64,000 nt of DNA from Gilvimarinus algae (GTDB taxonomy: Bacteria; Pseudomonadota; Gammaproteobacteria; Pseudomonadales; Cellvibrionaceae), in the NCBI RefSeq assembly GCF_030518215.1, contig NZ_JAULRT010000032.1, positions 372,001 to 436,000 of the forward strand. The letters are read 5' to 3'. This document shows, piece by piece, positions 22,176-35,374 of this stretch. Numbering within the stretch: the stretch's first letter is position 1; every line of letters begins with the position of its first letter. Position numbers and translations under genes: made by a program. The notes beneath the pieces were generated by a model. That model did no database searches, was not told the DNA's origin, and saw only the letters and a list, made by a program, of their open reading frames with translations.

Positions 22176-24092
22176 ATGAAATTTCCAAGCCTAGTCTTGT
22201 TGTCCCTGTTGCTGTGCGCTTGCAGTGAGCCTGAGCACCGAAGGCTTATCAGTCCAAACGGCGATTTGGTGCTTACACTCTCGCTGGGAGATAACAGCAG
22301 TATTGAGTACTCATTATCGCATCAGGGGCGCGTAGTGCTCGAAGCTTCTCCACTAGGGTTGGTGTTAGATGATGCCCACTTCGATCGCGAGCTTACGTTG
22401 GTTGATGCCAGCGATACCCGGCCGGTAAGCGACCGCTACACCATGGCCCATGGCAAGCAGCGGGAGATAGAATATATCGCTAATGAGCGAGTCTATACCG
22501 TAAAAAATGCCCAGGGTGATCAGCTTGCCATTGCGTTCCGCGTCTCCGATGACGGGCTCGCGTTTCAGTACCGCATACCCAACAACACTGGCCAAAGCCG
22601 CCGTTTGATAACTGAACTGACCGGCTTTGACTTTGAGGCCCAAGCCCAAGCCTGGCTCCAGCCCGTTGCTGTGGCGCAAACCGGATTTGCCAATACCAAT
22701 CCGTCTTATGAAGAGCATTACCAGATGGCAATACCTGTGGGCACGGCGAGTCCAACGGAGGCCGGTTGGGTTTTTCCATCGCTGTTTTATACCGGCAAAG
22801 ATTGGGTGCTGATTAGCGAGGCGGGGATGGACGGCCGCTTCAATGCCTCGCGCCTGGCGCAGGAATCAAACGCGGGAGAATACCGTATTGGCCAGCCGAT
22901 GGATGCCGAGGTCGTTACCGGCGGCGCGCTTATGGCCAACTCTAGCGATGCCTTTGCCTCGCCCTGGCGCATTGTGGCCGTGGGGGATCTGGCGAGCATT
23001 ACCGAGTCGACTCTGGGGACAGACCTGGCCGCACCTGCCCAAGCGCAAATGGACTGGGTCAAACCCGGGCTGTCGGCCTGGAGCTGGGCTCTGCTGAAAG
23101 ATGATTCGGTCAATGTCGAGACCACGCGCGAGTTTATTGACTATGCCGCCAGTATGCACTGGCCCTACGTGCTCATTGACGTCAACTGGGATCAAAATTT
23201 CGGCTGGGAAAAGCTCGCCGAGCTGGTGCGTTATGCCGCACCGAAAAATGTGGGCCTGATGGTGTGGTACAACTCATCTGGCGACTGGAACGAAACCGAA
23301 TACACGCCCAAAAGCCAGTTGTTTGACCGACAGTTGCGTCTGGAGCACTTTGCTCGCCTGCAGGACATTGGCGTGAAAGGGGTAAAGATTGACTTCTTCC
23401 CCGGCGATGGTCAATCAGTGATGCAGTACTACCTTGATCTGGTCAGTGATGCCGCCGCACATCAATTGATGGTGAATTATCACGGTTCCTCGCTGCCGCG
23501 CGGTTTGCACCGCACCTATCCAAATATGATGACCATGGAGGCGGTCAATGGGTTTGAAATGATTACTTTTACCCAGCAAACCGCGGACAGGGCCCCTAGC
23601 CATATGGCGATCTTGCCCTTTACCCGCAATGTGTTTGACCCCATGGACTTTACCCCCACGACCTTTGACGACATCCCCAATATCGAACGCCGCACCAGCA
23701 ATGGTTTTGAGTTGGCTCTGCCTGTGTTGTTTACCAGCGGTATTCAGCATATCGCGGAAACTGCTGAGGGCATGGCAAAGGTTCCCGAGTTTGTCAAAGC
23801 CTACCTGCGCGATATTCCAACGCTCTGGGATGAGACTCGATTACTTGCTGGCATGCCTGGCGAGTACGCCGTAATGGCACGCCGGCGCGGCGATGATTGG
23901 TTTATCGCCGGTATTAATGGGACTGATCAACCGCTTTCGCTGAGTTTGGACCTGTCATTTATTCAATCGGCCAAGGGCCAGCTGATCACCGATGGTGACA
24001 GCGAGCGCTCATTCAGTCAGCGGGATGTGGTTGCAGATTCATCACTGGAGCTGTCCGTGCGGGCTCGCGGCGGCTTTGTCATTAATTTCTAA
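22176..24092 (+). CDS. GH97 glycoside hydrolase, retaining type (alpha-galactosidase or beta-L-arabinopyranosidase)
   Basis: 638 residues. A hydrophobic leader with a possible lipobox (LLLCAC, Cys16) suggests a lipoprotein. The N-terminal beta-sandwich (about 20-285) leads into a TIM barrel (SAWSWALLKDDSVNVETTRE, PYVLIDVNWDQNFGWEKL). The nucleophile position is an Asp (GVKIDFF, Asp406), as in the retaining branch of GH97, and Glu455 (MTMEAVNG) fits the acid/base; inverting SusB-type members use Glu instead. Retaining GH97 enzymes are alpha-galactosidases or beta-L-arabinopyranosidases. The arabinan context favours the second or mixed arabinogalactan side chains. AAGGAGAG precedes the ATG. Confidence 0.88.
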   Translation: MKFPSLVLLSLLLCACSEPEHRRLISPNGDLVLTLSLGDNSSIEYSLSHQGRVVLEASPLGLVLDDAHFDRELTLVDASDTRPVSDRYTMAHGKQREIEYIANERVYTVKNAQGDQLAIAFRVSDDGLAFQYRIPNNTGQSRRLITELTGFDFEAQAQAWLQPVAVAQTGFANTNPSYEEHYQMAIPVGTASPTEAGWVFPSLFYTGKDWVLISEAGMDGRFNASRLAQESNAGEYRIGQPMDAEVVTGGALMANSSDAFASPWRIVAVGDLASITESTLGTDLAAPAQAQMDWVKPGLSAWSWALLKDDSVNVETTREFIDYAASMHWPYVLIDVNWDQNFGWEKLAELVRYAAPKNVGLMVWYNSSGDWNETEYTPKSQLFDRQLRLEHFARLQDIGVKGVKIDFFPGDGQSVMQYYLDLVSDAAAHQLMVNYHGSSLPRGLHRTYPNMMTMEAVNGFEMITFTQQTADRAPSHMAILPFTRNVFDPMDFTPTTFDDIPNIERRTSNGFELALPVLFTSGIQHIAETAEGMAKVPEFVKAYLRDIPTLWDETRLLAGMPGEYAVMARRRGDDWFIAGINGTDQPLSLSLDLSFIQSAKGQLITDGDSERSFSQRDVVADSSLELSVRARGGFVINF

Positions 24093-24104
24093 ACCGAGGA
24101 CGTT

Positions 24105-25898
24105 ATGAAAAACTGGAAACAGCTCACAGGCGCTGGCGCACTGGCATTGTCTATGGTGGCCTGCGCGCAACACCCTACAGCAGAGGGTGGTAAACAGTCG
24201 CCGACTCTACCCGATGGTTATTTCGCCAACCCACTGTTTGCCAATGGTGCTGACCCCTGGCTGGAGTACTGGGATGGCAACTATTACCTTACCACAACCA
24301 CTTGGACGTCTCAGTTGGTGATGCGCAAGTCGCCGACTCTGGCGGGGCTGTCTGAGGCAGCGCCGATCAACGTTTGGTCGGATACTGATCCGGCGCGCAG
24401 CTGGAATTTCTGGGCGTTTGAATTTCACCGCCTTAATGGGCCCAACGGCTGGCGCTGGTATTTGATGTATACCTCGGGCGTTCACGGCACATTAGATCAT
24501 CAGCATTTATCGGTACTGGAAAGCGCCGGCGATGATCCCATGGGGCCCTACGAATACAAGGGCCACTTTATGCCGGATGAGTGGAACATCGATGGCACCT
24601 ATCTTGAGCACAATGGCAAACTCTACTTGCTGTATTCCCAGTGGCAGGGCGATGAGCAGCTTAACTTGATCACTGAAATGGACAACCCCTGGACCCTCAA
24701 AGAAGGCTCTCCCAAAGTTGTACTGACCCGCCCGACGCTCGACTGGGAAATCAGCGGTCGTAAAGTGACTGAAGGGGCCGAGATACTCAAGCATCAGGGG
24801 CGCACCTTTCTGATTTATTCGGCCAGTTACTGCGATACACCCGACTACAAATTGGGAATGAAAGAGCTCATCGGCGACGACCCGCTCAACCCCGATCATT
24901 GGCAGCAGTACAACGAGCCGGTGTTCCAAAGGGGTAACGGCGTTTACGGGCCGGGGCACAACGGCTTTTTTACCTCACCGGATGGCACAGAAGACTGGAT
25001 TGTCTATCACGGCAACTCAAAAGAGACCTATGGCTGTGGCTCCACGCGTTCCGTGCGAGCACAAAAATTTACCTGGACGGCGGAGGGCCTGCCTGATTTC
25101 GGGGAGCCGATTCCGGAAGGCGAAGCGGTAAAAATGCCCTCGGGCGAGAACGGCCCCATTAAAGTATCTGTGCAGGGTGTGCCACAGCAACTGGTCAACC
25201 CTGCGGGTCAGTGCCTGGAGGCCCGCAAAGGCAAAGTGCGAGTGGCTGCCTGCGAGTCCGATCAGGCGAGCTGGGTGCTCGATGCAACGGCCGATGGTGC
25301 TTATCGGCTGGCCCATGTGGCAACCGGTACTTTTCTCAATGACAAAGGCATGGCCGCTCCCTGGATCAATACCGATACCCAGCGCTGGGACGTGAGTACT
25401 GGCGACAGTGGTTGGCTGAGCTTTACCAATCGCCATACTGGTCGCCCATTAAGTGTGGCACAGAGCAATCAATGGCGGCTGGCGCCCCAGGGCAAGGTCG
25501 CCGTCATGAGTGTGCAAAGTGGTAAGGCGCTCGCGATACAGGATGAGAATCTGGTCCAGCGTGCCTGGCGAGGTGAGGCCGATCAACAGTGGCAATTTAC
25601 CCACGCAGAAGAGGGCTTTTACCGCCTGCAGCTCGCGCAGAGTGAGAATGCTCAGTGTCTTACCCTAGACGGCAATCCCATAATTCCCGGTGCTAATGCC
25701 GAATTAGGCGCTTGCGAAAGCCCCTGGGCACAGTGGCTGGTGCGGCCTTTGGGTGATGGCTCGGTGGAACTGCGCAATAGGCACAGTGGCCTGTCGCTCA
25801 ATGTCGACAGTTGTGCCTTGGCCGATGGCGCCAATGTCTCCCAGGCCCCCTGGTTTGACAATGACTGCCAGAAATTCCAGCTGCGTGAAACCCATTAA
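24105..25898 (+). CDS. GH43 arabinofuranosidase with C-terminal ricin-type beta-trefoil (CBM13-like) domain
   Basis: 597 residues. The leader ends in SMVAC (Cys20), so probably a lipoprotein. The GH43 propeller (about 38-350) has Asp50 (GADPWL), Asp163 (NIDGTYL) and Glu223 (VTEGAEIL), with YGPGHNGFF for the metal site. A region of about 240 residues follows, with repeated Q-x-W-like and C-L patterns (GQCLEARKGKVRVAACE, AQCLTLDGN, QKFQL) typical of ricin-type lectin domains; it probably anchors the enzyme on arabinan. It starts 12 bases after the GH97 stop and ends in a strong terminator, so it closes the forward transcript. Confidence 0.88.
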   Translation: MKNWKQLTGAGALALSMVACAQHPTAEGGKQSPTLPDGYFANPLFANGADPWLEYWDGNYYLTTTTWTSQLVMRKSPTLAGLSEAAPINVWSDTDPARSWNFWAFEFHRLNGPNGWRWYLMYTSGVHGTLDHQHLSVLESAGDDPMGPYEYKGHFMPDEWNIDGTYLEHNGKLYLLYSQWQGDEQLNLITEMDNPWTLKEGSPKVVLTRPTLDWEISGRKVTEGAEILKHQGRTFLIYSASYCDTPDYKLGMKELIGDDPLNPDHWQQYNEPVFQRGNGVYGPGHNGFFTSPDGTEDWIVYHGNSKETYGCGSTRSVRAQKFTWTAEGLPDFGEPIPEGEAVKMPSGENGPIKVSVQGVPQQLVNPAGQCLEARKGKVRVAACESDQASWVLDATADGAYRLAHVATGTFLNDKGMAAPWINTDTQRWDVSTGDSGWLSFTNRHTGRPLSVAQSNQWRLAPQGKVAVMSVQSGKALAIQDENLVQRAWRGEADQQWQFTHAEEGFYRLQLAQSENAQCLTLDGNPIIPGANAELGACESPWAQWLVRPLGDGSVELRNRHSGLSLNVDSCALADGANVSQAPWFDNDCQKFQLRETH

Positions 25899-25905
25899 GT
25901 AGTGT

Positions 25906-25934
25906 AAAAGCCCGCCCCCGCCGGCGGGCTTTTT
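25906..25934 (+). terminator. intrinsic terminator after GH43-lectin gene
   Basis: AAAAGCCCGCC, a CCCGCC loop, then GGCGGGCTTTTT form a strong stem with a T-run, eight bases after the stop at 25898. It separates the upstream transcript from the GH51 gene. Confidence 0.92.
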
Positions 25935-25969
25935 GTATGATGTAATGATAATAACTGAAGGAGACCACC

Positions 25970-27502
25970 ATGAAGATAAAACACCTGATTGCAGCCGGTA
26001 TGCTACTGGCGGCTGCCCCTGTTCTCGCGAAAGATCACAAGGTAGATCTGACGTTTGATGCTGGCAACACCGGCCCCGTTATCGACAAAGACATCTACGG
26101 TCAGTTTGCCGAGCATCTCGGCCGGGGTATCTATGAGGGCGTATGGGTTGGCGAGGATTCTGACATTCCCAACACCCGCGGCTTTCGCAACGACGTGCTC
26201 AATGCCCTGCGAGATATTGAGGTTCCGCTGGTGCGCTGGCCCGGCGGTTGTTTTGCTGACGAGTATCATTGGCGCGAGGGCATAGGTCCGCGCGACGAGC
26301 GGCCGGTGAAGGTCAATACCCACTGGGGCGGTGTGGAAGAGCCTAATACCTTTGGCACCCACGAGTTCTTTGAGTTTGTCGAGCTACTGGGCGCCGACGC
26401 TTATGTCAATGGCAACCTGGGCAGCGGCAGTGTGCAGGAAATGGCCGAATGGCTGGAGTACATGACTGGCGAAAAAGGTTCTACGCTGGCGCAGGAGCGT
26501 CGCAAGAACGGCCGCGAAGAGCCTTTTGAGATTGCCTATTTCGGCATTGGCAATGAGGCCTGGGGGTGTGGCGGCAATATGCGGCCTGAGTACTACTCGG
26601 ATCTGTACCGCCAGTACGCTACTTTCTTAAAGGCGCCTGAGGGCAATATGCCCAAGCTGGTCGCCAGTGGTGGCCACAGTGAAGACACCACCTGGACCGA
26701 TGTCTTGAGTAAAAACATTGAGCAGAAAATTGATGGCATCAGCTATCACTACTACACCCTGCCCAACAGCGATTGGGACAATAAAGGCCGCGCCATCAAT
26801 TTCAGCGAAACGGACTGGTTTAATACCATGGACCGGACGTACAAGATTGATGACTATATCGAGGCCAACCTGAAGGTACTGGAAAAAAATGATCCGGAAG
26901 GGGACATTAAGTTCTATGTGGATGAGTGGGGCACTTGGTACGACCCGGAGCCCGAGCGTGATCCGGGCTTTTTGTACCAGCAAAATACCCTGCGCGATGC
27001 GGTTGTGGCGGCAGTGAACTTCAATATCTTTCACAAATACGCTGAACGGGTCACCATGACCAATATCGCGCAAATGGTGAATGTATTGCAGGCCATGATT
27101 CTCACCGACAAAGAGAAAATGGTGCTGACGCCCACCTATCACACCTATGGCATGTACAAGGTGTTCCAGGACGCGACCTCCATTCCGTTCAAGCTGAAAA
27201 CACCGGATTACAAAAACGGTGACAAGCGCGTGCCGGCGGTGACTGCCTCTGTTGCCCGAGGAACCGATGGCAAACTGTATCTGGCGTTGGTAAACATGGA
27301 CCCGAAAAATGGCGCCGATATTGATCTGGATATCGATGGGGTGAAGGCCAAGCGTGCGGAAGGTCAGATTCTCACCGCGGAGGCCATGGATGCTCGCAAT
27401 ACTTTTGACGCTCCCGCTACTCTGGAGCCGAAAGCCTTTTCAGCCGATCTGGATGAGCTGCGTATTCCCGCCAAATCGGTGGTGGTGGTTGAGCTGAAGT
27501 AG
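25970..27502 (+). CDS. GH51 alpha-L-arabinofuranosidase (exported)
   Basis: 510 residues with a signal peptide (MLLAAAPVLA, cut near 20), so periplasmic, although many GH51 enzymes are cytoplasmic. TIM barrel with RWPGGCFADEYHWREGIGPR, acid/base Glu196 (GIGNEAWGCGG) and nucleophile Glu319 (FYVDEWGTW), followed by the C-terminal beta-sandwich. It releases terminal arabinofuranose from oligosaccharides. AAGGAG precedes the ATG. It lies between two terminators and is probably transcribed alone; I see no copy of the palindromic operator directly upstream. Confidence 0.94.
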   Translation: MKIKHLIAAGMLLAAAPVLAKDHKVDLTFDAGNTGPVIDKDIYGQFAEHLGRGIYEGVWVGEDSDIPNTRGFRNDVLNALRDIEVPLVRWPGGCFADEYHWREGIGPRDERPVKVNTHWGGVEEPNTFGTHEFFEFVELLGADAYVNGNLGSGSVQEMAEWLEYMTGEKGSTLAQERRKNGREEPFEIAYFGIGNEAWGCGGNMRPEYYSDLYRQYATFLKAPEGNMPKLVASGGHSEDTTWTDVLSKNIEQKIDGISYHYYTLPNSDWDNKGRAINFSETDWFNTMDRTYKIDDYIEANLKVLEKNDPEGDIKFYVDEWGTWYDPEPERDPGFLYQQNTLRDAVVAAVNFNIFHKYAERVTMTNIAQMVNVLQAMILTDKEKMVLTPTYHTYGMYKVFQDATSIPFKLKTPDYKNGDKRVPAVTASVARGTDGKLYLALVNMDPKNGADIDLDIDGVKAKRAEGQILTAEAMDARNTFDAPATLEPKAFSADLDELRIPAKSVVVVELK

Positions 27503-27612: not shown

Positions 27613-28127
27613 GGCCGATGGAGGTGGCGGGTGAACCTGTTGGTGCGCTCCATGGGATGTCGAGTGCTCAAAAATGCATTGAGGGGTTGGTCGTAAAAGC
27701 GCGCTGCCGGCAATAGCCGCCGTTGTTCCGCAATGTATTTCTGGTGGCGGCCGATCTGGAGAACGAAATCCTCGAGCAGGGAAAAGGCGGCCGCAACACC
27801 GTTGACTCGGCGAGAAATACCCTGATGTACTTTGCCAATGATGACTTTGCCATGCCGGCCTCAACGGCGGCCAATGTCAGCAACAAAACCCGGTCGCGTC
27901 GCCTCGGCATGACCGGCCCAGAGAACATCAACCGCCTGCCGGGCAGTGTCTATGAGGTGGATTGCGATGATTTTAATAGCCGTTTTGATCGCAAGGGCCA
28001 CAGCTATTTTCTCCGCGATAGTGCCTTGGCCACCAGTCCGTTGTATTTGCACATGGCCGATGCCATTGCTGGCGAACGGGTGACACCTGGAGCGAGATGC
28101 CAACGGCTGGTTTGCCCGCCCCTTTGA
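27613..28127 (+). pseudogene. decayed DUF900-type alpha/beta hydrolase (C-terminal remnant)
   Basis: From 27631 one frame reads VNLLVRSMGCRVLKNALRGW and then stops; this looks like a nucleophile elbow (S-M-G) of a DUF900-type hydrolase. From 27723 another frame reads RNVFLVAADLENEILEQGKG and continues to 28127 through FANDDFAMPASTAANV, RSRRLGMTGPENINRLPGSV and YEVDCDDFN...KGHSYFL, where the catalytic His of the family sits. The N-terminal half and an intact frame are missing. So this is a 5'-truncated, frameshifted relic rather than a working gene, lying between GH51 and the ADP-ribosylglycohydrolase gene. Confidence 0.7.
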
Positions 28128-28159
28128 CGCTACACTGGCGAAAAACAAAGAGGTTCCCC

Positions 28160-29551
28160 ATGAAAAGTGTCTTTGCAATGGCGCTGAGTTTGATGCTCGG
28201 CGCAGCGTCTGTGGCGGGTGCAACACCAGCGTCTTTTTCGGTTTCCAAAGCAGAGTATCAAGATCGCCTCTATGGGTTTTGGCTCGGTCAGTGTATCGCC
28301 AACTGGAGCGGACTGGTCACCGAAATGGATAAAATTGGCAATATTGGCGAAATACAAACCGGCGACTTTTACACGCGCGAGAGTTGGGAGCAGGCCGATC
28401 AGCCCAGCATCTGGGGGCAAGGCGTACCCAGTGATTTGTCGGGCACCATTGATTTTGTCTTCGAGGAGCCCGGTGGGGTTTGGGGCGCTGATGATGACAC
28501 CGATATTGAGTACCTCTACCAGTACCTGCTCGCTAAACATCAAAGCAGCCTTCTGAGTGCCGAACAGATTCGCGATGGCTGGCTTACCCATATTTATCCG
28601 GCCGACGAGCCCACACCTTTTGGCAAGGACCCGGACGGCAACTATGAAAATTTTCTCTGGGTCTCTAACCAGCGAGCTTACGAATTGATGCGTGGCGGTC
28701 TCTTGCCGCCGGCAACCGGTCAGCGCGGCAACAACAGCCATTACGATATGATTGACGCTCAGTTGACCACCGAGATATTTGGCCTTTACGCTCCGGCTCG
28801 GCCGGATATAGCCAGGCAGCTGGCGGATTTGCCCGTTCGTACGACGGCCGACGCTGAAGCCGTCGACATTGCGCTTTTTTACGTCACGCTCTATTCGCTG
28901 GCCGGGTCGGTGGCACCCGGCGAGGTCGATGCGCCTGTTATTGAGTGGATGGCGGGAAAAGCCCGCGAGCTTTTGCCGGACGGGCAGTATCCGGCGGCCA
29001 TGTATGACTTTGTGTACCGCCAATACCGCCAGGGCATTCCCTGGGAGCAGACGCGCGATGCGGTTTATCTACGCTACCAGGTCGAGCAGGCCGACGGCTA
29101 CGATGTGACCACGCGTAACCTCTATTGCAATGGTTGTTTTGCCGCGGGTATTAACTTTGCCGCGAGTCTGATCAGCTTGTTTTACGGGGAGGGCGATATT
29201 AAAGAAACCATTAAAATCGCCATGCTGGTGGGATGGGATGCCGACAACCCGGCGGCCACCTGGGGCGGTTTGTTGGGGTTTATGTTGGGTCGCGAAGGCG
29301 TGGAGGCCGCCTTTGACCGCCGCTTTGCCGAACAGTTTTTTATTCATCGCACCCGACGACACTTTCCCAACAATGGCCTGGATAACTTTCCGGCCATGGC
29401 GGCGGTGGGAGCTGAGATTACAGAGCGTGTCATCAAAGAACAAATGCGCGGTGAGGTTCAAGGTGATCGCTGGGCGGTTCCCGAGGCTGTGCGAATTCCC
29501 GCATCGGCGAGAGCCGCTGACGGAGATCCATCGTTGGGCACTGGCAGATAG
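28160..29551 (+). CDS. exported ADP-ribosylglycohydrolase family protein
   Basis: 463 residues from the ATG at 28160 (MKSVFAMALSLMLGAASVAG, signal peptide); longer in-frame extensions run into the relic upstream. The fold signature of the family is present: YGFWLGQCIANW near the start, VWGADDDTDIEYLYQYLL (metal-binding Asp111-115) and, toward the C-terminus, LVGWDADNPAATWGGLLGF (Asp360, Asp362), the second metal-binding motif. Classical members remove ADP-ribose from proteins in the cytoplasm; this one is exported and sits beside arabinan enzymes. A role as a glycosidase acting on a ribofuranosyl- or arabinofuranosyl-like linkage is conceivable but unproven. Confidence 0.82.
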   Translation: MKSVFAMALSLMLGAASVAGATPASFSVSKAEYQDRLYGFWLGQCIANWSGLVTEMDKIGNIGEIQTGDFYTRESWEQADQPSIWGQGVPSDLSGTIDFVFEEPGGVWGADDDTDIEYLYQYLLAKHQSSLLSAEQIRDGWLTHIYPADEPTPFGKDPDGNYENFLWVSNQRAYELMRGGLLPPATGQRGNNSHYDMIDAQLTTEIFGLYAPARPDIARQLADLPVRTTADAEAVDIALFYVTLYSLAGSVAPGEVDAPVIEWMAGKARELLPDGQYPAAMYDFVYRQYRQGIPWEQTRDAVYLRYQVEQADGYDVTTRNLYCNGCFAAGINFAASLISLFYGEGDIKETIKIAMLVGWDADNPAATWGGLLGFMLGREGVEAAFDRRFAEQFFIHRTRRHFPNNGLDNFPAMAAVGAEITERVIKEQMRGEVQGDRWAVPEAVRIPASARAADGDPSLGTGR

Positions 29552-29592: not shown

Positions 29593-30723
29593 TCAAGATT
29601 GGTTCGTAAGATAGAGAGCTCTGATACGGGCAAGATCGTCTTGGGAGACACCCAGTTCCTTCTGGATATAGGCCATGGTTGATCCGTGATTTTTTTCCAG
29701 TTCGGAGAACATTGCCTGGATAAATATGGGGTCGGAGCCCATAAACACAGCGCGAATCTCAGCGGGCATTTGCGTAAACCCACTGTGCGGCGCATTCTGA
29801 TCTTCCTCTTGGGTCGGACGCTCGTCGTGGTGCGCGACCTTTTCGGTCAGGGCGTAGTCTGCGACAACCGTATCGCGCGGCACACCCAGGGCGGTTAGAA
29901 CCAATGCCGCGGCCATGCCGGTTCGATCTTTACCCGCCGAGCAGTTAAAAGCCAGAGGTGCGTTCCCGGCGGCCAGCTCCTGGAACATTTTGCGGTATTG
30001 CTCTTTAAACACATAGGGGCCGGTTCGGTAAAAGCCGGCGAAGACTTCTTTGGCATCATCCGCGCTGCGAATGGAGGCAAAGTTGAGTGCGTCATCGCCG
30101 GACATCATTTCGCGCATGGAATAGTCACCGGTCAGGTACTGGGCGTCGCCGGCAAAGGATGACCAGTCGGTGGGCTCGTGGGCCAGCTCCTCGCGAGAGC
30201 GAAAATCACAGATTACGCGAATATCCAGCGCACCCAGGTACTCGTAATCTTGCTCTGTGAGCCCGACCATGGTGCCGCTGCGATAGAGTCTGCCCCATTT
30301 CACACTGCGGCCGTTTTCGGTTTTATAACCACCGAGATCGCGAAAGTTGTGGCCGCCCTCCAGTGGCAACAGACGCTCGGCGACCCATTGTCCCTCGCTG
30401 CCCTCGGGCTGAACGTAGTAGTACTGACGCGTGTCGTTGACATCCGTGAGTCGGTAGCTGTTGCCTGTGACATCATCGGCAATTTTGGTCATGGAGGCTG
30501 TGCTGGGCGATGCGGCGCGGTAGATGTCCACCGGCGTATGGGCACTGCTGAGCTCCCAGTAGATCAGTTGCGATTCGGGCAAGAAGACGCTGTCCTCGTT
30601 GACCAGCGTCAGGCTGGCAAACGATGTCTGAGTCTGTGTTTGAGTAGCCTGGTGACTGCAGGCTGACAGCAGAGCCGCCGACAGGCTCAGTACCAAAGCG
30701 GATTGAGTAATACGTTTGTTCAT
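29593..30723 (-). CDS. tyrosine-phosphatase-family lipoprotein
   Basis: 376 residues from the ATG at 30723 (AAGGAGAATTTT upstream). The leader ends in LLSAC (Cys22), so a lipoprotein. Residues about 36-118 look like an Fn3-like beta-sandwich. Then comes a Y_phosphatase2/3-type catalytic domain: GGHNFRDLGGYKTENGRSV, RLYRSGTMVGLTEQD, ICDFRSREEL and the P-loop NCSAGKDRTG (nucleophile Cys261, Arg267), where the usual His before Cys is Asn. It lies 10 bases after the TonB receptor gene and so belongs to the same operon. The substrate is unknown; phospholipid, phosphosugar or inositol phosphate are possibilities. Confidence 0.85.
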   Translation of the reverse strand: MNKRITQSALVLSLSAALLSACSHQATQTQTQTSFASLTLVNEDSVFLPESQLIYWELSSAHTPVDIYRAASPSTASMTKIADDVTGNSYRLTDVNDTRQYYYVQPEGSEGQWVAERLLPLEGGHNFRDLGGYKTENGRSVKWGRLYRSGTMVGLTEQDYEYLGALDIRVICDFRSREELAHEPTDWSSFAGDAQYLTGDYSMREMMSGDDALNFASIRSADDAKEVFAGFYRTGPYVFKEQYRKMFQELAAGNAPLAFNCSAGKDRTGMAAALVLTALGVPRDTVVADYALTEKVAHHDERPTQEEDQNAPHSGFTQMPAEIRAVFMGSDPIFIQAMFSELEKNHGSTMAYIQKELGVSQDDLARIRALYLTNQS

Positions 30724-30733
30724 AAAATTCTCC

Positions 30734-33331
30734 TTAGAAGCTGGCGCGTACGCCAAACAGGTAGCGTTTGCCGAAGCCTTCAATCTCTACCGGGCGGTTT
30801 TCATTGCCCTGGTAGCGAATGCCAAGCTCATCGGTGAGGTTGTTGATGTCCATGTACAGCCCAATGGCTTCGGTGATTTGGTAGCGCACCGACAGGTCCA
30901 AGCGCTCAGTGTCCTGCCAGTAATAGTCGCCGTCGGCGTCGGGTGAAATGTCGTCAAGCCAGGCGTCTCGCCATTGCCAGTTAAGACGAATGGACCAGCC
31001 AAAGTTCTCGTAGAACACCGACGTATTGATCACTTTGTCAGAGGTGCCGGGGAAAGCGGTGGTGCGTCCGTCGGGTGTGGTGAACTCGCCATCAAGAAAA
31101 GCGATATTGGCCTGCATCCCAAAGCCGTACCAGGGCTCTGGCAAAAAGTCCCACTGGTGCTGGTAGGAAAACTCAACGCCAGCCAGCTTGCCGTCGTCGC
31201 CGTTGCGTGTGGTCTCGTACTCGTACGCAGAGCGGTCAATGCCGTCGCTGTTGTAGCGGTCATCACCGATGGTGGCGACCGAGTCAAACAAAACGTTGTC
31301 GACGTCGCGATAAAACGCATTGACCGAGGCGACAGCCGCATCGGTGAAATACCATTCAAGCGCCGTGTCCAGCCCCTTGGCAAACTCGGTTTCCACATCG
31401 GGATTGCCGCCGGACACGCTTTGCCCTGCATCACTGATGCTGGCGCCGGCGCGCATTTGGCTGAAGGTGGGTCGGCTGCTGCCGGTCACCAGAGCGAGGC
31501 GGTATTTCAATGTTTCGCTGATATCAAAATTCCAGTGGACGCTCGGATAGAAGCGCGTGTCATCGCTGCGGCGGGTGACCGGGTAGCTGCCTTCGCCATC
31601 GTTGAGATAACCGCTGCTGACAATGTCCACTTGTTCGATCCGGCCACCGATAAGAATTTGATGCGCACCCCAGTTCCAGGTGTTCATGGCGTAGAGGCTG
31701 GTTACCTCTTCGGTGACGGTGTACTGAGTTTCCGGGCTGATAAACTCATCGGGATTGATAAGACCTGCATCGGTGAGTGCGGCAAGGGTGGTGTCCAGGT
31801 GATCGCGCAGCCCTTCGTTGTCCACGTAGGTGGCGGTAAAGCCACGATCAAAGTCGGTGTCCCACGGATCGTCGGTCACATATTGGTTCGGGTTCCATTC
31901 CAGGCCGATCGCCTGTGCCAGGGGGCTGACGGTGACAAACGCCGAGCTGCTGCCCGGTGAGCCGGCTTCGCGATCATCATACTGAACGCCAAATTTGAGC
32001 TGGGCATCGACACTGCCCATTTGCCAGTCGCGGGCAAAATCCAGCTTGTAGGTCATGGATTCGGTTTGCGAGTCGCCCAGGTAGTTCACCAGGCCGTCGA
32101 AACCGTAACCGGTCTGATTCAGTGCCTCGGTTGCCTCGCCCATTATGGGGACGCCCTGCGCATTAAAGGTGGTCCCGTAGAGCTCCACCTGCGGCAGGCC
32201 GCGGTTTGAATGTTCGTAGCGCAGGGAGACAAACTCCGTGGGATCTACCTGATTGCGCAGAATAATCGGCAGCTTAAAAGAAGATTCGGTTTCGGTGTAG
32301 TTGACGCGCCAGCCGATCTCCCATTCCCCGGCCCAGTGATCGCCGCCGAGGGTATTGGTAAAGGTGGAGTTTTCGTAGTCGCCGTCCTGCAGCCAACCCT
32401 GAACGGGAACGCCAATCAGCTCACCGCTGTTCGGCTCTGCCGAGCCTGCAATCGCATCGGCCAGCGACAGCTGGTACATGTTGCGCAGCTCGTGATCGAG
32501 AAACTCGGTGTACAGCGAGGACAGCACAAAGCGGTGGCTGGCGCTCGGGGCAAACTCCAGCTTGCCCATGGCCGAGTTGGTTTCGCGCTCCAGCTGATAA
32601 CTTCTGAAATCAAACAGCGACGGCGTGTCACCTTCGCCGTAGGCAATCTCATTGTTGTCGGTGACCTGCTCCATGGAGTAAGTGGACAAAGCCACGACTG
32701 CGCCAAAGGTGTCATTACCCCAGGCAAGACGACCCGAGTAGCGCTCCTGGTTGCCGTCGCCCAGTTCCATGGGGCCGTAGCCCACATCCAGATCGGCGCT
32801 GAAGCCCTCACTGTTCAGTGGCGAGTACGTCTGGATATTGACCTGCCCGGCAAGTGCCTCAGCGGACATCTCGGGCGTAAGCGTTTTACTGATGGCGACC
32901 GAGTCCATCACCGCAGCGGGCACCGAGTCAAACCGGAAAATTCGCTCCTCTGCACCCAGCACATTGATGCCGTCAAAGGAGACCGTTGTCCAGCGCGCAG
33001 GAGCGCCGCGCACTTGAATGTAGCGTGGCTGGCCCTGATCGCGCTGCACAGCCACCGCCGGCAGCCTGGCCAAAGCCGCCGCCGCCGTGTGATCGGGAAA
33101 GCGCCCGATATCGTCAGCGGCGATGGCGCTGATGACATTTACGGCATCGCGCTGCAGGGCGATGGACTGAGCCTGAGAGTCCGCTATGGGGCGCGCTGTG
33201 ACCAACAGCTCTTCCATAACAGGTGCAACAATGTGTTCTGAATTTTGCTGGGCGAGGGCGCCGCCGCTGCACAGGCTGGCACACACCAAGGCCAGTGCAC
33301 GCTGCTTAAAATGTCGTTGGGTTGAGAGCAT
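30734..33331 (-). CDS. TonB-dependent receptor
   Basis: 865 residues with a signal peptide (cut near GALAQ, about 28). A plug domain follows (VNVISAIAADDIGRFPDHTA, ALARLPAVAVQRDQGQ, RYIQVRGAPARWTTVSFDGI) and a long beta-barrel ending KRYLFGVRASF with the terminal Phe needed for outer-membrane insertion. The plug type (DDIGRFPD) belongs to the large receptor group that often imports carbohydrates. In one operon with the lipoprotein phosphatase and divergent from the BlaI gene. The ligand may be phosphorylated, but this is inferred only from the partner. Confidence 0.9.
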   Translation of the reverse strand: MLSTQRHFKQRALALVCASLCSGGALAQQNSEHIVAPVMEELLVTARPIADSQAQSIALQRDAVNVISAIAADDIGRFPDHTAAAALARLPAVAVQRDQGQPRYIQVRGAPARWTTVSFDGINVLGAEERIFRFDSVPAAVMDSVAISKTLTPEMSAEALAGQVNIQTYSPLNSEGFSADLDVGYGPMELGDGNQERYSGRLAWGNDTFGAVVALSTYSMEQVTDNNEIAYGEGDTPSLFDFRSYQLERETNSAMGKLEFAPSASHRFVLSSLYTEFLDHELRNMYQLSLADAIAGSAEPNSGELIGVPVQGWLQDGDYENSTFTNTLGGDHWAGEWEIGWRVNYTETESSFKLPIILRNQVDPTEFVSLRYEHSNRGLPQVELYGTTFNAQGVPIMGEATEALNQTGYGFDGLVNYLGDSQTESMTYKLDFARDWQMGSVDAQLKFGVQYDDREAGSPGSSSAFVTVSPLAQAIGLEWNPNQYVTDDPWDTDFDRGFTATYVDNEGLRDHLDTTLAALTDAGLINPDEFISPETQYTVTEEVTSLYAMNTWNWGAHQILIGGRIEQVDIVSSGYLNDGEGSYPVTRRSDDTRFYPSVHWNFDISETLKYRLALVTGSSRPTFSQMRAGASISDAGQSVSGGNPDVETEFAKGLDTALEWYFTDAAVASVNAFYRDVDNVLFDSVATIGDDRYNSDGIDRSAYEYETTRNGDDGKLAGVEFSYQHQWDFLPEPWYGFGMQANIAFLDGEFTTPDGRTTAFPGTSDKVINTSVFYENFGWSIRLNWQWRDAWLDDISPDADGDYYWQDTERLDLSVRYQITEAIGLYMDINNLTDELGIRYQGNENRPVEIEGFGKRYLFGVRASF

Positions 33332-33398
33332 TACACATTCCTCAAAGTTAGCGTCGTTATCGGGCGCATAACCTAGAGCAGCATTGTGACAAGTGTAT

Positions 33399-33413
33399 TA
33401 CTACAATGTAGTA
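33399..33413. promoter_or_regulatory. BlaI-type operator, dyad 1
   Basis: TACTACAATGTAGTA is a perfect 15-bp palindrome with the TACA/TGTA core of BlaI/MecI operators. It lies 68 bp upstream of the divergent TonB receptor start and 112 bp upstream of blaI. Confidence 0.7.
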
Positions 33414-33452
33414 GATCTGTTATTGCGTGATATTTTTGCTATTTTGAAGGGG

Positions 33453-33470
33453 TGTGACGACACTGTCACA
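33453..33470. promoter_or_regulatory. second dyad upstream of blaI
   Basis: TGTGACGACACTGTCACA contains TGTGAC and GTCACA arms and an inner GACA-C-TGTC dyad (33459-33467) that resembles the BlaI core with altered outer bases. It is centred 57 bp from dyad 1. Together they may let BlaI repress the blaI-M56 operon cooperatively. Confidence 0.45.
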
Positions 33471-33524
33471 AAATTGTTATATCCCGCCGATACCATTCGT
33501 CGGCTAACCTGTGCCGGAGGAATC

Positions 33525-33908
33525 GTGAAGCAGAAGAGCTTGCCAGAATTGTCGAAAACGGAATTCAGTTTATTAAATGTATTGTGGAAAAAAAGCCCTT
33601 TGTCTGTGCGAGAAATTCACGATCGGCTGGATAACGGTTGGGCCTATACCACGACCAAGACCACCCTGGACAGAATGGTGGCTAAGGGCATTCTCGGGCG
33701 CGAATCGGCGCACGGTGTTTATATCTATTCGCCGTGTATTGGCCGGGCGGCGGGCCTGGTTCAGTGGGTGCGTTTTATCGCCGACAATGTGTTTGATCTT
33801 GAGCCCCTTGAGGTGGTGAATCTTTTTGCTAAACGCAAAACTTACTCCGACGAAGAGTTGCGTGAGCTGCGTGAACTCTTATCCAGAGATGATGATTCAT
33901 CTCGTTGA
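33525..33908 (+). CDS. blaI: BlaI/MecI-family transcriptional repressor
   Basis: 127 residues from the GTG at 33525, which has CGGAGGA upstream; the longer frame from 33393 covers the operator region and is not plausible. The winged helix (LSKTEFSLLNVLWKKSPL, SVREIHDRLDNGWAYTTTKT, TLDRMVAKGILGRESAHGV) is typical, and the C-terminal dimerisation part contains VVNLFAKRKTYSDEELRELR. The NLF segment is close to the Asn-Phe bond cut in staphylococcal BlaI. It is 17 bases from the M56 gene, the usual sensor-protease partner. Confidence 0.9.
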   Translation: MKQKSLPELSKTEFSLLNVLWKKSPLSVREIHDRLDNGWAYTTTKTTLDRMVAKGILGRESAHGVYIYSPCIGRAAGLVQWVRFIADNVFDLEPLEVVNLFAKRKTYSDEELRELRELLSRDDDSSR

Positions 33909-33925
33909 TGCACTGAGGTTTTACC

Positions 33926-35374
33926 GTGTCAGAACAACTGGTTTATCTGATTGGTAATTCAAGCTTCCTGCTCATGGGGCTGGCTCAGCGCTTTCTGCTC
34001 TTTTCCATTATTGGCCTGATACTGGTGATTTTGATGGTGCGGCTTTTTAAGCCGCGCTGTGCCGGCCCGGTGTGGGGCATCTATTTGCTCTGGCTGGTGC
34101 CGGCATCCGCGCCCATGGCGCCCTCGCTGTCGCCCGGATGGTGGTCTCATCTCGGTTTTTCCCACATCGACTGGCTGGACCCCTGCGCGCTGCTGCCGGT
34201 AGAGCGAGTCAGTGCCGTGCCGTTTTCTTCTATGCCCTTTATCAGCCGGGAAGCGGTTTTGATTGGGGCCTGGCTGCTGGTTTCGCTGTTGTTGTTGGCG
34301 CGAATCGTCTATCGGCGGCTCAGCTTTTTGCGCATTGCCCGCGAGGCCCACGTTGTCAGCGACCCTCACTGGCAAACGCTGGTGCAACGATTGCGCAAGG
34401 ATTACCGAATCAACCGGCCGGTGCGCCTGTGCAGTTCAAGCGCCTGCGCTACGCCTTTTACCATCGGCCTGCTCAGGCCGGAGGTGTTTATTCCTGAGTC
34501 CATGCTCAGTGAGCTCGACCGTGAAACCCTGGAAGTGGTGGTGGCGCACGAGCTGGCGCACATTGCTCGCGGTGATGATTTGAGCGTTACTTTTCAACAT
34601 GTGTTTCGCGCACTGTTTTTCTTTAATCCGCTGGTCAATTACGCGCACCGCAAACTGGGCGAGGCGCGGGAGGTGGGCTGCGATACCTTGGCGGTTGTGC
34701 GCTGCCGGATCGCGCCGCGCGACTACGGTATTGCCATGGTGCGAGTGCTCGAGCACTTTAAGGGCAACTTGGGGTCGTCGCAGCCGGTGGCGGGTTTTCT
34801 CAATCAGGATGTCCGCCAGAGAATTCAGACTCTGCTGCACTCGGAAAATCAGGGTCGCGACTGGCTGTTGCCCAGCGCTTTGACGGTGGTGCTCTTGCTG
34901 GGCGTGAGTCTTGCCCTCTCCGGGGCGCATCAGCCCTCAATCATGCCTGAGGATGAAGCTCGCGCGTTACTGGCCCCTTTGCAGGCCCAGCCGCCCATAG
35001 AGCGGGCGCGAGTCACGGGCGAGCTCTACCTGAATGCGCCGCTCGGCTGCGCTATCCCCCACAAGGATCACTACCACTCAGGGATGGACTTTACGCCCGC
35101 ATCGACCACGGCCGCCGTCAGTGCGATTGCGGCGGGGGTGGTGGTGGAGGTAATGACACCGGCTGGCAATGTGGGAAAGTTGGTCAAGATTCGCCACGAC
35201 AACGACATCTACTCGACCTACGTGCGCCTCGACCAGGTTGAGGTCCACGCCGGTCAACCAGTGGGCAATGGTCAGCGGCTTGGCAGTCTGGGCGCGACCG
35301 AGCGCACGGATCACCTGCATTTTGAATTGCATCACGGGCAGCAGGTGATCGACCCGGGTTTACTGATTTATTGA
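33926..35374 (+). CDS. BlaR1-like M56 metallopeptidase fused to a C-terminal M23 (LytM-like) domain
   Basis: 482 residues. N-terminal membrane segments (about 12-40, 46-66, 110-128), then the cytoplasmic M56 protease with HELAH (208-212) and the downstream REVGCD acidic motif (248-253), a last membrane segment (about 316-334) and an extracytoplasmic M23 domain (about 360-482). BlaR1 carries a penicillin-binding sensor at that place; here it is replaced by the LytM fold. Zn ligands are present (His384 and Asp388 in HSGMD; HLH 463-465), but the catalytic His of the usual Y-x-H-L motif is Arg434 (YVRL). The domain may therefore bind peptidoglycan without cutting it. The likely function is cell-wall sensing and BlaI cleavage. 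Confidence 0.88.

Follow-up and report, generated by a model that had tools for sequence, protein, structure and literature searches.

Organization of the locus

The window (the whole stretch of 64,000 nucleotides of Gilvimarinus algae DNA that was analysed) carries on the + strand, at 33525..33908, a gene encoding a BlaI-type repressor of 127 aa (Pfam Penicillinase_R, E 3.7e-23). It is followed on the same strand, after a gap of 17 bases, by a gene at 33926..35374 which encodes an M56 membrane metalloprotease of 482 aa with a C-terminal M23 domain. Pfam placed Peptidase_M56 at residues 30-302 (E 8e-33) and Peptidase_M23 at residues 383-477 (E 1.1e-20), which is congruent with the preliminary description of a BlaI repressor paired with an M56 protease ending in M23.

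Three features go beyond that description: a divergent operon, a candidate operator and a cysteine pair between loop EL1 and the M23 domain. The divergent partner of blaI, on the - strand at 30734..33331, was identified by domain searches as a TonB-dependent receptor of the TIGR01782 type. The next gene on that strand, at 29593..30783, encodes a PTP-like phosphatase (PF13350) with a lipoprotein-like signal sequence and an intact C-x5-R loop; an internal ATG near 30723 may be its true start. The stretch 33332..33524 separates the TonB receptor gene (-) from blaI (+), and inside it lies the perfect 15-bp palindrome TACTACA-A-TGTAGTA at 33399..33413, the candidate BlaI operator.

An ADP-ribosylglycohydrolase-family gene at 28097-29551 is convergent with the phosphatase gene. 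Genes for GH97, GH43 with a ricin-type lectin and alpha-L-arabinofuranosidase stand in a run at 22176-27502, which is probably a plant-polysaccharide locus. Rfam gave no match at gathering thresholds on the whole 64,000-nt window.

Distribution and phylogeny of M56-M23 proteins

The survey covered 144 genomes of the host family, with samples of 390 from the order and 369 from the class. Proteins joining M56 to M23 were many inside the host family and few outside it (G172, G429, G311; G769, G526, G864), and some of the latter matched in part only. At most four candidates per genome were scored in the order and class samples, so the survey may have overlooked fusions beyond the family. The relatives across the host family rule out a fusion peculiar to this genome. 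A BlaI neighbour was recognised at 43 of 45 M56-M23 loci; the two misses were L158, for which a genome search showed one, and L145, which had none.

A genome-contig scan with the full protein gave one locus, in Streptococcus, with 30% identity over query 316-420, and was not useful. Among 20 plasmid records none covers 80% of the query, and the 15 matches listed cover the M56 part only.

Altogether 46 proteins were aligned. Neither the tree nor the counts based on 43 include L164 and L165 (no M23) or L062 (in-frame stop). The M56-M23 gene of L062 is interrupted by an in-frame TAG, and its blaI and a downstream M23 gene are present.

Both catalytic His are kept in 28 of the 43 proteins (L146 was scored intact although Y432 and H424 differ), and the other 15 are degenerate. 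The residue at the place of the catalytic His (His216 of Campylobacter jejuni Pgp3) is Arg in six degenerate proteins (the window protein and its five orthologues); four others have Gln, two have Pro and one has Tyr. The remaining two are L143, with Arg and no HxH found, and L057, which reads YLHL but has YxH for HxH.

The midpoint-rooted tree, in which L057 and L141-L143 are among the long branches flagged, separated, both at 100/100, a group of 26 intact rows and one of 17 rows, the latter comprising the 15 degenerate proteins and two intact ones, one of which is the host's own second copy. Support was 98/96 for the Arg clade and 100/99 for the Arg clade with L057. A branch holding degenerate proteins only, excluding the two nearest intact relatives, was weak (80/61), so a single loss is possible, not proven. 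The preliminary description had set homologues with an intact His and measured hydrolase activity against its sensor reading. Homologues with the intact His exist and are the majority here (28 of 43), the 26 as a separate group and the two as nearest outgroup, and activity data for them were not found.

The host's second BlaI/M56-M23 pair (L071, G000:C16:174760-176118) has intact catalytic residues, and its neighbours are esterase, polysaccharide deacetylase and GlcNAcase-like genes. At seven further intact loci (L064, L065, L150, L153, L154, L162, L163) genes for a MepM/ShyC-like M23 endopeptidase and esterase-like proteins come directly after the pair, with domains checked in L064. The Gln-type pairs (L058, L061, L147, L148) are near EAL, HD-GYP and penicillin amidase genes. 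The position of several intact relatives beside MepM-like endopeptidase, deacetylase, esterase or pump genes suggests an envelope origin.

M56 protease and BlaI

All 46 proteins have H208, E209 and H212 (HELAH, 34547..34561, + strand), E249 and D253, and 45 of the 46 have R299; L164, L165 and L062 are included in these counts. These residues match the BlaR1 protease-site residues named in PMC9834060. The HELAH motif was aligned by phmmer with HEYAH of BlaR1, and the family profile covers BlaR1 7-345 with E 2.7e-29. Thus the protein has the M56 gluzincin site of BlaR1/MecR1 (HExxH, E, D, R), and a repressor of the BlaI/MecI type adjoins it.

In the alignment with 1sd4, 41 of 44 BlaI proteins have Phe where BlaI is expected to be cleaved, and the predicted cut in the window's repressor is before F101 (VVNLF). 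Of this site it is the Phe alone that is conserved. BlaR1 cleaves itself at S283-F284 (PMC9834060). The presumed counterpart in the autocleavage loop, the candidate position F291 (PVAGF; codon at 34796..34798, + strand), is Phe in 32 of 46 proteins. Because the site residues are conserved and match BlaR1, and Phe is found at the cleavage places, the M56 protease is probably working and BlaI is probably its substrate.

Degenerate M23 domain

No penicillin-binding sensor domain was found in the M56-M23 protein by Pfam at E 0.01 or better, and M23 stands in its place; against the NCBIfam model blaR1_generic the protein scored 81.6 bits, the cut-off being 400. The zinc ligands of an M23 peptidase, HxxxD and the second H of HxH, are present as H384 and D388 in HSGMD (35075..35089, + strand) and H465 in HLHFE. 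The HLH motif (35312..35320, + strand) also holds H463, the second catalytic His. The catalytic His of Y-x-H-L is missing, and Arg434 (codon at 35225..35227, + strand) occupies its place in Y432-V-R434-L; ligands and Arg are where they had been described.

The best PDB match of the domain by phmmer was C. jejuni Pgp3 (6jmx, E 6.1e-10). In this alignment R434 falls on the Pgp3 His which is Ala in 6jn7/6jn8, and in the depositors' account His216 is a non-ligand residue of the catalytic core (PMC6978369). An alignment of the M23 domain across homologues had been proposed as a check, and it gave Arg in the window protein and in all five close orthologues, from two genera, so Arg434 is not peculiar to a single sequence. 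The T-G which comes ahead of HLH in intact proteins is absent from the Arg clade. The complete set of three zinc ligands is kept in 14 of the 15 degenerate M23 proteins.

The dN/dS of the M23 domain was 0.058 and that of the M56 part 0.012 for L052 against L053, the only usable pair (low dS), as most other dS values were saturated or not computable. Invariant columns in the Arg clade made up 28% of M23 and 32% of M56. A decaying M23 domain was considered and is ruled out by the dN/dS together with the conserved ligands. We infer that the M23 fold has lost catalysis and kept its zinc site.

EL1 loop and cysteine pair

The predicted extracytoplasmic loop EL1 holds exactly one Cys (C87 in the window protein, codon at 34184..34186, + strand), and so does the M23 portion (C375, codon at 35048..35050, + strand), where it lies on the rim of the domain, nine residues ahead of the zinc ligand H384. 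This holds for 7/7 proteins of the Arg clade plus L057, the M23 Cys of L057 being off the C375 alignment column and paired by its P-x-x-C context. The other 39 proteins showed no Cys in EL1 (the EL1 of L157 is outside its ORF). Among these 39, a Cys in the M23 portion occurs in L058 and L158 only, in a count which includes L062, L164 and L165, which lack the M23 part. Within EL1, all seven proteins agree only at P66, C87 and R94. Since the pair is of single origin on the tree, 7/7 represents one event retained.

Hydropathy showed helices at 23-41, 110-128 and 314-332 and a weak stretch within M23. TM2 was below threshold, so the extracytoplasmic placing of both cysteines leans on homology with BlaR1. 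A model of BlaR1 places EL1 residues 87-94 within the groove of the sensor, from which the drug is proposed to displace them (PMC9834060). The simplest reading of the cysteine pair, judged from residues and their conservation, suggests a C87-C375 disulfide.

Candidate operator

The palindrome at 33399-33413 is the only place in the host genome at two or fewer mismatches from the pattern. Its exact core, CTACANTGTAG, occurs once in that genome, at the palindrome; at one mismatch the core was found at 45 places, compared with 32 for the control. A site with 0-2 mismatches lies upstream of blaI in six related genomes, those of the five orthologous loci and of L057. Allowing two mismatches, seven genomes together gave 31 places and the reversed control gave 47; the pattern outnumbered the control in G046 and G048 and fell short of it in the remaining five genomes. 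Operator-like sites elsewhere are therefore near background. Exact CTACANTGTAG was also present outside the locus at five places in G114, six in G117 and two in G118, and larger regulons are therefore possible there.

Operator-like sites were also seen at two more distant degenerate loci. At L142 one lies before blaI and a second in the gap that separates the M56-M23 gene from the TonB gene; each has three mismatches. For three or fewer mismatches, single-base shuffles of one stretch of the window put the chance expectation at 0.34 sites per 17 kb. Three of the eight CTACANNGTAG places in the genome with L142 (G429) fall in this locus. At L060 a site with three mismatches falls within the longest blaI ORF, at the 5' end of that frame, and a second with two mismatches is before the TonB gene. 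The genome concerned (G084) has no CTACANNGTAG place in the L060 locus, and TATTACAATGTAATA is matched there with at most one mismatch at a single place, ahead of the TonB gene. The intact loci had no site within three mismatches of the window operator near blaI; L149 has one about 520 bases off. Two operator-like sites in tandem were observed before blaI at L061, L147 and L148; L058 has an exact site and a weaker one.

TonB receptor and phosphatase genes

Both genes of the divergent operon, for the TIGR01782 TonB receptor and the PF13350 phosphatase, accompany blaI in the window and at 5/5 orthologous loci. Phosphatases of at least 55% identity occur in exactly the six of the 144 family genomes which have the Arg-type protein. 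A phosphatase homologue was found in 27 other family genomes, and ten loci from ten of these were sampled: a TonB gene adjoined the phosphatase gene in 9/10, and the TonB-phosphatase pair had no recognised BlaI beside it in 9/10. The pairs without BlaI suggest that the BlaI switch may have joined a pre-existing TonB-phosphatase uptake cassette.

Several of the pairs without recognised BlaI (L166-L170, L172-L175) are beside genes of about 290 and 400 aa. Six flanking genes compared with Pfam, and four of these with NCBIfam, gave no family; at a lax Pfam threshold two of the flanking genes yielded one weak match (E 0.18). Matches of one flanking gene to antibody light chains in PDB were weak and read as chance.

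Other degenerate types have comparable neighbours. L057 has SurE and TonB genes, divergent, and at L060 the downstream genes include those for a TonB receptor and an alkaline phosphatase; three degenerate types go with three unrelated phosphatases, PF13350 (window), SurE (L057) and alkaline phosphatase (L060). L142 has a TonB gene downstream, and no phosphatase was recognised nearby. A TonB gene lies within two genes at 9/15 degenerate loci (8 of 14 loci tested, plus the window) vs 4/28 intact loci. No TonB neighbour was seen at L141, at L143 or at any of the four Gln loci. At L141, a Pro-type locus, a HAD-family hydrolase gene (L141:8670-9386) is divergent from blaI.

TonB genes are common, with 52 Plug matches in the host genome (G000). 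Since the rows are related and TonB genes common, the operator sites weigh more than TonB adjacency. Judged from neighbours and operator-like sites, control of a beta-lactamase or PBP2a gene, as in BlaR1/MecR1 systems, was not found.

Proposed mechanism and candidate signals

We consider it fairly probable that the locus works by BlaR1-style proteolytic derepression, in which a non-catalytic M23 receptor governs the control of uptake genes. At rest, BlaI would sit on the palindrome at 33399-33413 and keep two operons repressed, its own and the divergent one for the TonB receptor and phosphatase. A periplasmic signal would bind the M23 groove, formed by zinc, H463 and R434, and would shift how EL1 lies against M23, as a beta-lactam displaces EL1 in BlaR1; in the Arg lineage EL1 is probably tied to the M23 rim by the C87-C375 disulfide. 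The M56 site would then be activated and cut BlaI ahead of F101, allowing both the TonB receptor and the phosphatase to be made. Peptidoglycan fragments, an anionic nutrient, a protein partner and redox state are the candidate signals.

The M23 domain had been put forward as a sensor which reads the state of the wall. The sensor part of that proposal has held: the protease is of the BlaR1 type, an M23 without its catalytic His stands in the sensor place, the Arg is fixed in the close orthologues and the domain is under purifying selection. The peptidoglycan part stays a conjecture. The candidate operator adjoins genes for a TonB receptor and a phosphatase and not wall or beta-lactam genes.

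It is less probable that the degenerate M23 binds stem peptides or muropeptides uncut and reports wall state, the uptake genes answering to wall turnover products. The M23 fold and groove residues are conserved, Pgp3 H247A crystals still bind pentapeptide and tetra-tri peptide (PMC6978369), and MepM-like endopeptidase, deacetylase or esterase genes are near some intact relatives. Also, a cytoplasmic peptidoglycan dipeptide destabilises BlaI/MecI-DNA complexes in another system (PMC3305447). However, the conserved partners of the Arg lineage are the TonB receptor and phosphatase, and the T-G ahead of HLH is missing.

An anionic ligand is a tentative and less probable idea still. Zinc, Arg434 and H463 of the M23 domain might make an anion pocket for a phosphorylated or carboxylated compound tied to the TonB receptor and phosphatase. 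The active site of Pgp3 binds tartrate and citrate, with tartrate contacting His216 and His247 (PMC6978369), and PF13350, SurE and alkaline phosphatase each occur beside a degenerate M56-M23 protein and a TonB gene. On the other side, L060 has Pro and L057 His at the Arg434 place, so the phosphatase link does not depend on Arg, and L142 has its TonB gene with no phosphatase recognised nearby. The fullest version, equally speculative, would have the His-to-Arg change make M23 non-catalytic and the disulfide tether it to EL1, giving an anion receptor which lifts BlaI off the TonB receptor-phosphatase operon for nutrient acquisition.

Degenerate M23 proteins act mostly in protein-protein interactions (PMC9662197), and M23 could be a protein-binding hub in the manner of EnvC/NlpD, sensing a partner in the periplasm or outer membrane, for instance the TonB receptor. 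We think this unlikely, as the zinc ligands are retained in 14/15 degenerate proteins. More doubtful again is a redox switch at C87-C375, with periplasmic oxidation or reduction as the signal: exactly one Cys on each side in 7/7 would suit it, but a structural disulfide accounts for the same pattern and the TonB and phosphatase genes have no clear redox link. That M23 is still a hydrolase with altered specificity is very improbable, since, in spite of the retained zinc ligands and H463, the catalytic-core His is missing in the window protein and 5/5 orthologues and Q, P or Y takes its place in other degenerate proteins.

Comparison with known systems

A review lists M56 among the domains found with M23 (PMC9662197). 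In the literature covered (titles and abstract openings, with few subscription journals) no M56-M23 sensor was described, nor a degenerate M23 sensor on an M56 protease, a TonB/phosphatase target or an EL1 cysteine. The BlaR1/BlaI design itself is already known.

Among the closest known systems are the intact M56-M23 fusions (28/43, including the host paralogue), which share the architecture and, at most loci, the BlaI neighbour. They differ in that their catalytic His is intact, no EL1 Cys was seen in them, and several have endopeptidase, deacetylase, esterase or pump genes as neighbours. The 28 intact and 15 degenerate relatives offer a natural series on the change from enzyme to sensor. If the proposed mechanism is true, a peptidoglycan hydrolase fold has been turned into a receptor. 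Like the degenerate LytM proteins EnvC and NlpD (PMC9662197), the window protein has an M23 fold without the full catalytic set; unlike them, it keeps the zinc ligands and is fused to a signalling protease. Pgp3 (6jmx) is an active peptidase with His216, whereas the window protein has Arg434.

BlaR1-type signalling is known for beta-lactams. With the BlaR1/MecR1-BlaI/MecI systems of S. aureus and B. licheniformis the locus shares the M56 residues, the membrane and protease part, a C-terminal extracytoplasmic sensor, a partner repressor and a palindrome in the divergent promoter. It is unlike them in having M23 as sensor and not a penicillin-binding domain, in the cysteine pair between EL1 and the sensor, and in a partner operon of TonB receptor and phosphatase. 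The predicted EL1-M23 disulfide would bear on the proposal for BlaR1 that the signal is carried by displacement of EL1. If the mechanism is true, the same membrane-protease chassis can take a quite different receptor domain and serve outer-membrane uptake in a Gram-negative bacterium.
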